This document shows positions 1 to 53,982 of a stretch of 64,000 nucleotides of DNA, piece after piece (within the stretch, counting starts at the first letter, position 1; each line of letters starts with the position of its first letter). Below the pieces are notes generated by a model, which saw only the letters and a program-made list of their open reading frames with translations, was not told the DNA's origin and made no database searches. The stretch is from an uncultured Pelagibacteraceae bacterium (GTDB lineage Bacteria > Pseudomonadota > Alphaproteobacteria > Pelagibacterales > Pelagibacteraceae): NCBI GenBank assembly GCA_902531175.1, contig CACADE010000003.1:62001-126000 (forward strand). Direction: 5' to 3'. The position numbers were made by a program, and so were the translations under genes.

Positions 1-1702
1 TTTCAGGAATAATAAGGCTTTCATCTTTTTTGAATGCCAATATATCTGCATTTTGCTTCTTTAAATAACCTTTATAATGTGAATTTATTTCTAATTGTTC
101 GTCAATTTCACGTGAAACATACTTAATTTCAGGCCATATTTCTCTTATTTTATTCATATTTACTGATTTTTGGCCTAAAATCTGGCTTGCCGATCTGTTA
201 ATTCCGTCTTTAGCAATATTTACACCATATTTTTCGACTTTAGATGGTGAAATATTTAAATTGTTCATCTTTATTTCAATCTTTGATAATTGTTTGAACT
301 TCTCCATAAACACTTTTGCTCTTTCACTAAGTACAACTCCAATGTTTATACCTTTTTGTGTCAACCTGACATCCGCATTGTCTGACCTAAGGGATAATCT
401 ATATTCAGCTCTAGACGTGAACATTCTATAAGGTTCTGCTACACCTTTAGTAACGAGATCATCGATCATAACTCCAATATAGGCTTCTGATCTGTCTAAA
501 ATGAAAGGCTCTTTATTCTTAATTGAAAGGGCTGCATTAATCCCCGCCATCAATCCTTGAGCTGCAGCTTCTTCATATCCTGTGGTACCGTTGATTTGAC
601 CGGCCAGGTAAAGATTTTTTATTTTTTTTGTTTCAAGGGTTAAAAATAGTTCTCTGGGATCCACAAAATCGTACTCTATAGCATAACCAGGCCTTAATAT
701 TTTTACTTTCTCTAAACCATTGATTTTACTACATATTTCTTGCTGAATATCCTCTGGCAATGAAGTAGATATCCCATTTGGGTAAATTGTATAATCATTG
801 AGTCCTTCAGGTTCCAAAAAAATTTGGTGTCTCTGCTTATCTGCAAATTTTTTAATTTTATCTTCTATAGATGGACAATATCTTGGACCAACACCATTTA
901 TACTGCCCGAATACATTGCACTTTGTTTTATATTCTTAGAAATAATTTTGTGAACAGCTTCATTAGTATATGTCATACGACATGAAATTTGTTTATTTAA
1001 ATTTTTTTTAGTTAGAAAAGAAAAAAAATATGGATCATTATCAGCATGTTGTTCCTCTAAATTTTCAAAATTTATTGTCCTAGCATCAAGTCTTGGCGGG
1101 GTACCGGTTTTAAGTCTTCCGATTTTAAAATTATATTTTTCTAATTGTTCACTTAAACCAGTAGATGGCTTTTCATTAAATCTTCCTGCTGGCGTCTTTA
1201 GCTGACCAATATGTATTAAACCATTTAAGAATGTCCCTGTTGTTAAAATGACTTTGGAAGACTTAATTTCTTTCCCTGACTGGGTAGCAAATCCAATTAT
1301 CTTATTATTTTTAAAATTAAATCTAATTACAGGATCTGAAAAAATGCTTAAATTACAATAGTTTGCAAGTTTTTCTTGCATATATTTTTTATATAATGAT
1401 CTATCACTTTGGGTTCTAGGTCCTCTCACAGCCGGTCCCCTACTTCTATTTAATAATCTAAATTGGATACCAGATTTATCTGCTACATCTCCCATAACTC
1501 CATCTAATGCATCAATTTCTCTAACTAAATGACCCTTTCCTAAACCACCAATAGCAGGATTACACGACATCTCTCCAATAGTATTCAGGTTATGAGTGAA
1601 TAATGCAGTATTAACTCCTAATCGTGCCGAAGCAGCCGCCGCCTCGCAACCTGCATGACCACCACCAACTACAACCACATCAAATATTAATTCATTTTTC
1701 AC
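1..1702 (-). CDS. mnmG: tRNA uridine-5-carboxymethylaminomethyl modification enzyme MnmG, C-terminus cut by the window edge
   Basis: FAD-dependent subunit that acts with MnmE to place the cmnm5 group on wobble uridine 34 of certain tRNAs. The visible part is about 567 codons; the family is usually near 620, so only the C-terminal end is missing beyond base 1. The N-terminus carries the dinucleotide-binding motif [14 protein letters not shown] directly after the start. I chose GTG at 1702-1700, because the ATG at 1695 is out of frame and no in-frame ATG lies nearby upstream. A sigma-70-like promoter lies just upstream (1728-1757), so it can be transcribed separately from mnmE, which precedes it on the same strand. 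In other alphaproteobacteria rsmG, parA and parB follow; that part is outside the window. Confidence 0.93.
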
Positions 1703-5876: not shown

Positions 5877-6866
5877 TTAAATATTTTTTTGAATAAGATT
5901 ATTTATTAATTTAATATGGTCATCATTATCATTTAAACATGGTATCATATCAAAATTTTCTCCTCCAGATTCCATGAAACTTTCTTTTCCTTGTATTAAT
6001 ATTTCCTCTAAAGTTTCAACACAATCTGAAGAAAATCCAGGGCATATTGCAAGGACATTTTTTACTCCCTCCTTTGGTAAACTTTCTAAAGTTTTATCAG
6101 TGTACGGTTTAAGCCATTCTTGTGGTCCAAATCTAGACTGAAAAGTAGTTTTAATTTCAATTGATTTAAACTTTTCAGATATTAGTCTTGTGGTCTTGTG
6201 ACAATAACAATGATAAGGATCACCTTTATCAAAATATTTCTTTGGGATACCATGATAAGAAGCCAAAATTAAATCTGGCTTCCAATTTATCTTCTCTAAT
6301 TTTTGATTAATTGAGTTAACGAGGGCATCAATATAAAGAGGATTTGACTCATAATGTGGTATAATTTTCAAGGATGGTTGCCATCTCATATTCATTAAGG
6401 TTCTATATACTTCATCACATACTGTGGCTGTGGTTGCTGCTGAATATTGCGGATATAGAGGAAGAATTACAAGATTTTCACAACCATTTTCTTGTAATTT
6501 TTTAATTTTACTTTTAATACTTGGATTTCCATATCTCATAGCAAAATCTATTATTAAATTATCATTTGATATTTGATCTGAAACTTTTTTTGTTTGCTTA
6601 CGAGTATAATATAATAAAGGTGAGATATTATCTTTTTTCATCCAAATTTCTTTATATGCCTTTGCGGTTTTAGATGGTCTTAAATTAAGAATAAAAACGT
6701 TTAATATTATTTGCCATAAAATTGGATTAACTTCTATTACTCTCCTATCAGATAGAAACTCTTTTAGATATTTCCTTATATCAAGCCAACCTGTTGAGTC
6801 TGGTGTGCCTAAGTTTATTATTAAAATTCCTGTTTTTCCAAATTTAACCTCCGGATGATTTTCCAT
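5877..6866 (-). CDS. hemH: Ferrochelatase
   Basis: Inserts Fe2+ into protoporphyrin IX, the last step of haem b synthesis. The 329-residue length is normal. Visible family motifs are LINLGTPDS (about 16-24), LPLYPQYS (135-142), SYHGIPKKY (203-211) with the metal-binding His at 205, and PGFSSDCVETLEEI (276-289) with the catalytic Glu. Its start overlaps the hemE stop by one base (TAATG), and hemG follows without a gap, so the three are translationally linked. No transmembrane segment is evident. Confidence 0.97.
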   Translation of the reverse strand: MENHPEVKFGKTGILIINLGTPDSTGWLDIRKYLKEFLSDRRVIEVNPILWQIILNVFILNLRPSKTAKAYKEIWMKKDNISPLLYYTRKQTKKVSDQISNDNLIIDFAMRYGNPSIKSKIKKLQENGCENLVILPLYPQYSAATTATVCDEVYRTLMNMRWQPSLKIIPHYESNPLYIDALVNSINQKLEKINWKPDLILASYHGIPKKYFDKGDPYHCYCHKTTRLISEKFKSIEIKTTFQSRFGPQEWLKPYTDKTLESLPKEGVKNVLAICPGFSSDCVETLEEILIQGKESFMESGGENFDMIPCLNDNDDHIKLINNLIQKNI

Positions 6867-7867
6867 TATTTAAAATTCCTCACTATTGTCACCATTTCTT
6901 CGACCATATCAATTCTAGTTTCAGGAAGGATACCATGTCCTAGATTAAATACATAAGGATGATCTCTAAAAATTTCTAAATATTTTGTAACTTCATTTTT
7001 TAAACTTTTCTTATCGGTTAATAGAATTTTTGGATCAAGCCCACCTTGTATAGGAATACTAACGTTTTTAAGTAAGTTCTCTGGCTCGACGTTATAATCT
7101 ATATTTACCATATCTGGTTTTACATTCTTACAAAATAGAGGGTAATCAGATATACCTCTCGGAAAACATATAACCGGGACACCAAGTTGTTTTGTAAAGT
7201 TTACCAATGATAATGTTGGATTATATAAAAATTTATCAAAATCCTTTTCAATTAGGCCTGACCAGCTATCAAAAATTTGTATTATAGTAGCTCCAGCGTT
7301 GACTTGATTTTTAATATGTATCTTAATGAATTTATCAAGAATTCTTAACAAGTAATCGACCCGTTCCATATCTGCAAAAAAATTGTTAGATAAACCATTT
7401 TTTGGTGAAACTTTATTAATCATATAAACTAACAAGGTCCAAGGAGCTCCCACAAAACCTATTAAATCTTTATTCTTTAGTTTTTTATTTTTACTCAAAT
7501 TTTGTAAAAGTTTATAAATTGGTGACATTCTATCTGTAAAGCTTAATTCGTCCAAATCTGACAATTCATTTAAATTTATTTCACCAAGGTTTGGTCCAAA
7601 ATTTTTTTTAAATTCTACTTTTTGTCCAAGTCCATAAGGTATCATTAAAATATCTGAAAAAATAATTGCTGCATCAAAATCAAACCTATCTAAAGGTTGA
7701 AGAGTTATTTGTTCCGACAGCTCCGCATTTAAACACAATTCAATAAAATTTGTATTAAGTTTCCTTATTTCCCTAAATTCTGGCAAATATCTTCCTGCTT
7801 GTCTCATTAACCACATAGGGTTTATATTTGTTTTTTTATTTATTAAACATTCCTTTATTGGTGTCAT
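6866..7867 (-). CDS. hemE: Uroporphyrinogen decarboxylase
   Basis: Converts uroporphyrinogen III to coproporphyrinogen III. The 333 residues include the signature WLMRQAGRYLPEFR (19-32), the FSDILMIPYGLGQ region and the C-terminal NLGHGILP motif. First gene of a leftward run hemE-hemH-hemG-rho. It is divergent from ppsR, and the 279-base gap between the two is the likely replication origin. In Caulobacter and Rickettsia hemE likewise borders oriC. Confidence 0.97.
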   Translation of the reverse strand: MTPIKECLINKKTNINPMWLMRQAGRYLPEFREIRKLNTNFIELCLNAELSEQITLQPLDRFDFDAAIIFSDILMIPYGLGQKVEFKKNFGPNLGEINLNELSDLDELSFTDRMSPIYKLLQNLSKNKKLKNKDLIGFVGAPWTLLVYMINKVSPKNGLSNNFFADMERVDYLLRILDKFIKIHIKNQVNAGATIIQIFDSWSGLIEKDFDKFLYNPTLSLVNFTKQLGVPVICFPRGISDYPLFCKNVKPDMVNIDYNVEPENLLKNVSIPIQGGLDPKILLTDKKSLKNEVTKYLEIFRDHPYVFNLGHGILPETRIDMVEEMVTIVRNFK

Positions 7868-8146
7868 AATTAATAAGTAATATATTTAGATTTATTATTA
7901 GTATGATTTGTTAATAACGTAAATTACTCAATTTAAACACTTTATTAATTATTTATACATTCTGTTAGTTTAAAATACGCGTAATCTCTGAATTATTGTA
8001 TGGTTCCTGTCGAACTTAAAAGATGTTTATAAGTTATTAACATTTATAAATTTGTTAATTATATGTGATTAAATTGTAAAAATTGCTTCTAGTTGCTTAT
8101 TTTTATAAACTTCTTATTTTATAAATATTTTATAAACAAATAATAC
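7868..8146. other. Candidate chromosomal replication origin (oriC)
   Basis: This is the longest gap in the window at 279 bases, very A+T-rich, between divergent hemE and ppsR. The same gene pair borders oriC in Caulobacter crescentus and Rickettsia. Genes on both sides read away from it for several kilobases. I find DnaA-box-like sites with one or two mismatches to TTATNCACA: TTATAAACA at 8130-8138 (plus) and 8024-8032 (minus), TTATAAACT at 8103-8111, and weaker TTATACATT near 7954. No perfect box is present. It must also hold the promoters of hemE and ppsR, which I could not assign with confidence. Confidence 0.5.
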
Positions 8147-8968
8147 ATGAAAAATACACACCAAGTTTACTTAATATCTGATTCTACTGGGGAAACATTA
8201 GATAGGATATTTATGGCTCTAAAAGCTCAATTTAATAATTTTAATTATGACTTAAACCAATTTTCCTTCACCAGAACTGAAAATCAAATTACTACAATTC
8301 TAAGAAATGCAAAAAAGCAAGATAGCCCAATTATTTTGTACACTGTTGTAAATAGTAAATTAGCCAAGTTTCTCGCAGAAGAAGCTAATAAGAAAAAGAT
8401 ACCTTGTTTCGGAGTATTGGGCGATTTAATTTTAAACTTTTCAAAAATACTTAACGAAAAGGCCACTCATGAACCAAGCGCACAACATGTTTTAGATGAA
8501 GATTATTATAAAAGAATTGAGGCAATTCAGTTTACAATGAATCATGATGATGGAAATAACACTGAAAATATTCTAGACTCCGATATTATTTTAATAGGAG
8601 TAAGCCGTACTAGCAAAACTCCCACATCAATCTACTTAGCAAATAAGGGATTAAAAACTTCTAATATACCCTTAGTAAATGACATGGTTATTCCGCAAGA
8701 GGTTATTAAATCTAAAAAAATTTGTGTAATTGGTTTAACAACCGAAGCTGAAAGATTATTTGATATAAGGAGAAATAGATTAATATCCTTAAAAGAAAAT
8801 GAAGCTTCTGATTATACAAATTTAGAGAAAATTAAAGCTGAAGTTGAACAATCAAAAAAAATTTTTAAAAAAAATCAATGGCCCACTATTGATGTTACTA
8901 GAAAATCTGTTGAAGAAACAGCAGCGTCAATTATAAAAATTTATGAAATCCAGAGTAAAAATGCATAA
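8147..8968 (+). CDS. Pyruvate,phosphate dikinase / PEP synthase regulatory protein (DUF299)
   Basis: Bifunctional serine/threonine kinase and phosphorylase family that turns PPDK or PEP synthase off and on in response to ADP and phosphate. The 273 residues carry SDSTGET (11-17) at the N-terminus and the family P-loop GVSRTSKTPTS (151-161). It is the first rightward gene after the candidate origin and corresponds to the RP001-type gene next to oriC in other alphaproteobacteria. The target enzyme is not in the window. Its end overlaps the chosen maf start by 8 bases. Confidence 0.93.
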   Translation: MKNTHQVYLISDSTGETLDRIFMALKAQFNNFNYDLNQFSFTRTENQITTILRNAKKQDSPIILYTVVNSKLAKFLAEEANKKKIPCFGVLGDLILNFSKILNEKATHEPSAQHVLDEDYYKRIEAIQFTMNHDDGNNTENILDSDIILIGVSRTSKTPTSIYLANKGLKTSNIPLVNDMVIPQEVIKSKKICVIGLTTEAERLFDIRRNRLISLKENEASDYTNLEKIKAEVEQSKKIFKKNQWPTIDVTRKSVEETAASIIKIYEIQSKNA

Positions 8969-53709: not shown

Positions 53710-53710
53710 A

Positions 53711-53941
53711 TTAACAACAAGAACAACTTGTCTTTTTCTCTGATTTTTTTTCTTCAATTACTTCTTCCCTAGCTGCTGATTGTTCAAGAATTTTTGCTGC
53801 TTCAGCTTCTTTCTCTTTTAATATTTTATTTTCAATGTATGCGTAAAGAGAGTTGAAACCTAATTTTGAAGCTTTCTTTTCTTCGTAATTCCTTCTGCCT
53901 TTAAGATTTTCAATAATTTCAAGAACTTGCGGGTTATTCAT
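53711..53941 (-). CDS. Small coiled-coil protein with C-terminal CSCC tail
   Basis: I do not recognise a named family. The 76 residues have a helical first part with LGFNSLYAYIENKIL, a long charged coiled-coil stretch (about 38-68, rich in Glu, Lys and Ala) and the tail TSCSCC. The terminal Cys cluster could bind a metal or a persulfide or be oxidised. It converges with the beta-helix gene with one base between stops and lies 41 bases downstream of the second photolyase-like gene on the same strand. Confidence 0.65.
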   Translation of the reverse strand: MNNPQVLEIIENLKGRRNYEEKKASKLGFNSLYAYIENKILKEKEAEAAKILEQSAAREEVIEEKKSEKKTSCSCC

Positions 53942-53982
53942 ATTATTGTTATCTCATAATTTTGATAATTTACAATAGTTCT

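Follow-up and report, generated by a model that had tools for sequence, protein, structure and literature searches.

The 279-bp block between hemE and ppsR in this uncultured SAR11 bacterium is, in all likelihood, its chromosomal origin of replication, oriC. This reading, made from comparison of sequences, draws on a conserved place and length, a cluster of conserved DnaA boxes, a DnaA-trio-like element, a nearby parS and a rough skew axis. The original prediction had already named the gap a candidate origin, which the comparison supports, although one of the sites that it named is not conserved. More specifically, the block is very probably a genuine, streamlined oriC of the hemE/ppsR type with an A/T-drifted box. 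A specialist would have expected an origin at this location; the useful parts are the box consensus and the distance to dnaA. The window, that is the whole stretch of DNA analysed, comprises 64,000 nucleotides (C3:62001-126000) of a 25-contig genome totalling 1,297,415 bases, and its numbering is used throughout (Table 1).

The hemE/ppsR block and its counterparts across the family

The coordinates of the gap and the divergent hemE/ppsR layout given in the original prediction are exact, with Pfam assigning the two products to URO-D and Kinase-PPPase. Beyond hemE, to the left, lie hemH, rho and mnmE, and to the right of ppsR lie maf, aroE, coaE, a dnaQ-like exonuclease gene and secB (all by Pfam). 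The gap is A+T-rich, as had been proposed, and A+T-richer than its surroundings, the 2-kb bins of the window ranging from 24 to 38% G+C. It had also been described as the longest gap in the window, which holds for gaps lying inside it when ORFs of at least 80 codons are taken as genes; a longer ORF-free stretch (1-1778) abuts the window edge, where a gene is presumably cut off. The runner-up, at 53710-53982 (273 bp, 28% G+C), has no Rfam match.

Table 1. Features of the candidate origin and its surroundings, in window coordinates; slot conservation counts aligned gaps with at most one mismatch to TTAT[ACT][AC]ACA
Feature	Coordinates	Strand	Details
oriC candidate	7868..8146	.	entire hemE/ppsR intergenic block, 279 bp, 18% G+C
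hemE, flanking gene	6866..7867	-	Pfam URO-D, 1.5e-80
ppsR (COG1806/DUF299 type), flanking gene	8147..8968	+	Pfam Kinase-PPPase, 7.8e-92
DnaA-trio-like run	7893..7904	+	3'->5' from B1: TAT GAT TAT TAT after a 4-base spacer
DnaA box B1, TTATTAACA	7909..7917	-	beside trio-like run; 94/99 aligned gaps, shuffled 0.6%
DnaA box, TTATAAACA here	8024..8032	-	71/99 aligned gaps, shuffled 2.9%; TTATTAACA in 50/99
DnaA box, TTATTAACA here	8034..8042	+	80/99 aligned gaps, shuffled 4.7%; TTATTCACA in 25/99
DnaA-box-like TAATTAACA	8053..8061	-	73/99 aligned gaps, shuffled 3.1%; TAATTAACA in 55/99
TTATAAACT, named in the original prediction	8103..8111	+	2/99 aligned gaps, shuffled 4.4%
DnaA box, TTATAAACA	8130..8138	+	88/99 aligned gaps, shuffled 6.0%; TTATAAACA in 47/99
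parS-like site	104..119 (C3:62104-62119)	.	two mismatches

Within the family, ppsR is present in 162 of 197 genomes (76 of the 78 better assemblies), and loci were drawn from these and from named contigs. Among loci L001-L112, all 108 that hold both genes have them in divergent orientation (L001 and L003 being one and the same locus); the remainder consists of three without hemE on the stretch examined and of L002, which is the dnaA locus. hemE also lies beside ppsR in 54 of 55 further regions. The 161 family gaps, which include eight exact duplicates, measure 254-297 bp (median 281) with 12-27% G+C, their length staying near 281 bp while their sequence diverges. Motifs were counted in 75 of these, left by a greedy filter that held mutual 8-mer sharing below 35%; the 75 gaps are related by descent and their motif counts are not independent.

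A clustered and conserved set of DnaA boxes

By far the commonest motif of the 75 gaps is TTATTAACA, with 92 sites against 4.7 in shuffled sequence and an occurrence in 59 gaps against 4.3. It is accompanied by TTATAAACA (33 sites against 4.7), TTATTCACA (20 against 0.6), TTATCAACA (16 against 0.8) and TTATCCACA (5 against 0.1), whereas forms combining T at position 5 with T or G at position 6 are at chance level (6 against 5.0 and 1 against 0.6, respectively). The relaxed class TTAT[ACT][AC]ACA is found in 71 of the 75 gaps, compared with 11.0 after shuffling; 11 gaps hold one such site and four hold none. Clade-bound exceptions to this box rule are TTATCTACA (8 against 0.7) and TTATAGACA (7 against 0.5), and another clade-bound word, GGTCATGTT, which overlaps B1 and the spacer in some genera, equals TTATTAACA in z-score rank.

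In the window's own gap there are four sites of the relaxed class against 0.15 expected, and none of 5000 shuffles reaches four, but the class was defined afterwards on a gap set that includes this one, and the main case is the family comparison. TTATAAAC[AT] has three sites in the gap where 0.12 are expected (P 0.0008; 5000 dinucleotide shuffles of the gap) but shows no enrichment when the window is taken as a whole (5 sites against 6.8 expected). Nowhere else in C3:1-126000 do three or more relaxed sites fall within 280 bp; the gap holds four of the 18. The consensus TTATNCACA, present in 27 of the 75 family gaps, has no occurrence in that of the window. With the consensus box lacking and the relaxed one present, we file this gap as a putative variant of the hemE/COG1806 type of oriC.

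The box sites occupy fixed slots across the family gaps, and the conservation of each slot was scored over the 99 distinct aligned gaps of the genus relative to shuffled sequence (Table 1). All three sites named in the original prediction are at their exact coordinates; those at 8024 and 8130 fall in conserved slots, but the one at 8103 does not and is probably not functional. The box form that it put forward, TTATAAACA, is genuine, the main form being TTATTAACA, and it had overlooked TTATTAACA at 7909-7917 and 8034-8042 as well as TAATTAACA at 8053-8061. Among the relatives, and counting against the oriC reading, the gap of genome G043 holds only three relaxed boxes, and in the 795 kb of this genome that were scanned the sole strict three-site cluster lies near 285310, away from the hemE/ppsR gap. 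A corresponding scan of G078 found no cluster in the stretches covered, which left out the gap itself.

A DnaA-trio-like run beside the hemE-side box

A trio-like run flanks B1, the box on the hemE side. Read 3'->5' from B1 towards hemE, the A and T columns of the 75 gaps show a periodicity of three: A stands at positions 6, 9, 12, 15 and 18 in 85, 83, 69, 75 and 55% of them, and T at positions 7, 10, 13, 16 and 19 in 92, 91, 88, 93 and 79%. At least three trios starting with GA are seen in 38 of the 75 gaps, as against a shuffled mean of 11.8 and a maximum of 20 in 200 shuffles. The window's gap also matches the pattern of the bacterial basal unwinding system (BUS), a permissive one, in which at least three central-A trios lie no more than 16 bases from a box that carries up to two mismatches: GAT TAT TAT lies seven bases from TTATTAACA, which is itself two mismatches from TTATCCACA. 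In the sister family f2, where the box finder misplaced B1, the number of trios (3 of 27) does not rise significantly above shuffled sequence (1.0, at most 4), although visual inspection readily shows GAT repeats in the f2 loci L320, L324, L333 and L343.

Taken as a mechanism, these elements would let DnaA bind a constant set of some five or six TTAT[T/A/C][A/C]ACA boxes and, starting at B1, assemble along the trio-like strand (7893-7904) in the direction of hemE. Melting would follow at 7868-7908, where the DNA is A+T-rich, and the replicative helicase would be loaded there.

Persistence of the block when its neighbours change

In f2, a search of 53 genomes gave no ppsR match; such an empty result by itself proves nothing, though with the same query 154 of 240 genomes in the class did match at an E-value of 1e-15 or better. 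In 26 of 30 f2 loci (L315-L344), 252-281 bp separate hemE from a Maf-like ORF that follows it, and all 30 contain a Maf match. The f2 gaps contain 17 sites of the relaxed class against 2.5 shuffled, spread over 13 of 27 gaps. In genus g9 (L151, L287), hemE does not adjoin ppsR and the A+T-rich block upstream of ppsR is kept, with one and three TTATAAACA sites in the two loci. Outside SAR11, the best 27 loci from 151 matching alphaproteobacterial genomes include 25 with divergent hemE/ppsR, separated by gaps of 356-591 bp.

DnaA and the sixth position of the box

Comparison of DnaA domain IV with E. coli 1J1V gives a match at 8e-24. Of the residues that have been reported as base contacts (399, 423, 432-435 and 438-439; PMC5043019), all are retained apart from L438I, a substitution shared by the f2 relatives. 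Just before the RDHTT recognition helix, the GG of the signature FGGRDHTTV is replaced by [A/S]N in genera g1, g2 and g4 (F[A/S]NRDHTT[V/I]) and by [S/T]G in g5, g9 and g12 (F[S/T]GRDHTTV), and is unchanged in 30 of 30 f2 loci (signatures from dnaA at G000:C3:5584-5790 and from loci L257-L286 and L365-L384).

On the DNA side, position 6 of TTATNNACA is occupied by 90 A, 24 C, 9 T and 7 G in genus g1, by 52 A, 8 C, 7 T and 1 G in the other genera of the family, by 9 A and 9 C in f2, and by 3 A, 13 C and 1 G in other Alphaproteobacteria; in PMC4285127, the eight tabulated 9-mer boxes all have C. Relative to composition, C is nevertheless more enriched than A at this position (32-fold for TTATTCACA, 20-fold for TTATTAACA), and hence drift within the tolerance of DnaA suffices to account for the data, with no need for a new specificity. 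The main form does, however, refuse T at position 6, which argues that A is accepted there rather than merely frequent. We consider it most likely that the A/T-rich box consensus arose by A+T drift inside this position-6 tolerance. It is conceivable, if rather doubtful, that the SAR11 box shifted from TTATCCACA to TTATTAACA while DnaA adjusted to an A in the sixth position, an adjustment to which the change of GG to [A/S]N in g1, g2 and g4 may have contributed. A simple link between that change and A at position 6 was rejected, as g5 and g12 have [S/T]G and yet show nearly all A (12 of 12 and 9 of 10 TTATNNACA sites). The suggestion in the original prediction that DnaA may use an altered box is thus borne out for the DNA, where position 6 is mostly A and not C, but not for a changed protein, given the retained contacts and the stronger enrichment of C.

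parS, skew and the chromosomal axis

The genome's one exact parS (C3:61772-61787) lies outside the window, 332 bases to the left of the parS-like site in Table 1 and at a distance of 8.1 kb from the gap; ParB adjoins it. Eleven complete genomes have a parS carrying no more than one mismatch, located 7-20 kb from the gap in ten, the eleventh not being placeable. Extra one-mismatch matches occur elsewhere in G043, G017 and G078, and the reversed parS pattern gave one match, in G043.

In four sampled relatives (G043, G078, G040 and G026, in this order hereafter), the raw cumulative GC-skew minima fall at 596, 1213, 238 and 433 kb and the gaps at 605, 1262, 359 and 336 kb, that is 9, 50, 122 and 97 kb apart, too coarse a measure to separate the gap from dnaA; the skew maxima lie 28, 102, 16 and 28 kb from the antipode. 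The window's 126-kb contig has no skew minimum at the gap, its cumulative skew being lowest near 40 kb of the window; GC skew in both window and contig tracks gene strands and, over 126 kb, is not diagnostic either way. The skews of P. ubique are reported to be atypical for the class (PMC2031905).

The leading strand carries 62-67% of the coding length in the four sampled genomes, and fourfold-site skew was meant to remove this gene-strand effect on GC skew. Leading minus lagging, it amounts to -0.093, -0.061, -0.016 and +0.065 for GC and to -0.041, -0.050, -0.091 and -0.091 for TA. The resulting axis fits in G043 and, less exactly, in G078 and G040, under a model that is blind to origin versus terminus and with mixed polarity. 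At leading-strand fourfold sites A exceeds T in all four genomes and C exceeds G in three, which is opposite to the usual sign in bacteria and counts against the oriC reading; one guess is that genes on the leading strand are under codon selection. In 11 genomes a dif site was sought opposite the gap with an E. coli-type pattern and discarded, as matches were at the level of the reversed control; the terminus is not independently placed.

Alternative readings of the gap

An origin at or near dnaA, with the gap as a mere DnaA-titration or segregation-linked site, would accord with the start of genome alignments at DnaA in a recent Arctic SAR11 paper (PMC12421898), and the sampled skew does not discriminate over the distance involved, which is about 64 kb in this genome and 61-65 kb when seven complete genomes of the genus are included. 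We nonetheless regard it as very improbable: C3:1-126000, dnaA included, has no second cluster of at least three relaxed sites per 280 bp, parS in this genome is 8 kb from the gap as opposed to 56 kb from dnaA, and it is the hemE/ppsR pair that flanks oriC in Caulobacter and Rickettsia (PMC1914354). It is scarcely credible that the gap is just an ordinary long divergent promoter region, A+T-rich by composition. While it must contain the promoters of the two genes between which it lies, its motifs outnumber those in dinucleotide-shuffled versions of the gaps, the block and its boxes survive the loss of ppsR or the replacement of hemE, and its length is maintained despite sequence divergence.

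Recognition of the conserved TTATTAACA-like sites by another protein, such as a CtrA-type regulator or IHF, with the DnaA boxes elsewhere, also appears highly unlikely. Relatives display canonical forms in the same slots, namely TTATTCACA at 8034 and, in 4 of 99 gaps, TTATCCACA at 7909. The CtrA motif TTAA-N7-TTAA is mildly above chance over the 75 gaps (74 sites against 42.7; 30 gaps against 18.1), as is the IHF motif WATCAANNNNTTR (13 gaps against 5.5), but the window's gap has no CtrA motif. It has no WATCAANNNNTTR site either, and the looser IHF consensus WATCAN5WTR occurs in it once against 0.44 expected from mononucleotide shuffles, which is chance level; the lack of the CtrA and WATCAANNNNTTR motifs also counts against the oriC reading itself. 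A reading of the gap through CtrA, GANTC or IHF was likewise set aside, GANTC being below chance (8 against 24.2 in the 75 gaps) and the other two weak.

The oriC reading bears on how this lineage is studied. Growth rates of marine SAR11 are estimated from the ratio of origin-near to terminus-near reads, and at least one tool, GRiD, places the origin by dnaA (as described in PMC7852909). With an origin about 64 kb from dnaA and no box that TTATNCACA can find, the choice of anchor and motif would therefore matter: the A/T-drifted landing sites of an abundant ocean bacterium would be missed by a standard box search. The block also offers a defined stretch of 280 bp on which replication initiation could be put to a first test in a streamlined marine bacterium, and its relatives provide a natural series of box variants for studying DnaA specificity.

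Comparison with known origins

A description of the SAR11 oriC box was not found in the literature searched, including searches on DoriC and Pelagibacter, though a DoriC database prediction may exist. The block shares with Caulobacter Cori and Rickettsia oriC, as presented in PMC1914354, the hemE/COG1806 pair, the divergent layout, an A+T-rich gap with multiple boxes and ParB/parS nearby (here at 8 kb). It differs from them in being shorter, about 281 bp against more than 400 bp in R. prowazekii and C. crescentus, in the absence of the CtrA motif from the window's gap, and in a box that is mostly TTATTAACA where the strong box of Caulobacter is TGATCCACA (PMC4285127). The CtrA motif is not universal, ori regions without it having been reported (PMC1914354).

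With the BUS (PMC8287927) the block has in common the order of box, short spacer and central-A trinucleotide repeats, with GAT frequent. It departs from the BUS in that strict trios are found in only 38 of 75 gaps, KAT often replacing GAT, and A+T-rich DNA satisfies the published pattern easily. Finally, the boxes predicted from sequence in Mycoplasma hominis, M. mobile and M. arthritidis (PMC2751442) belong to unrelated bacteria and lie upstream of dnaA; yet in that lineage, too, which is likewise A+T-rich, the predicted box is the identical 9-mer TTATTAACA.
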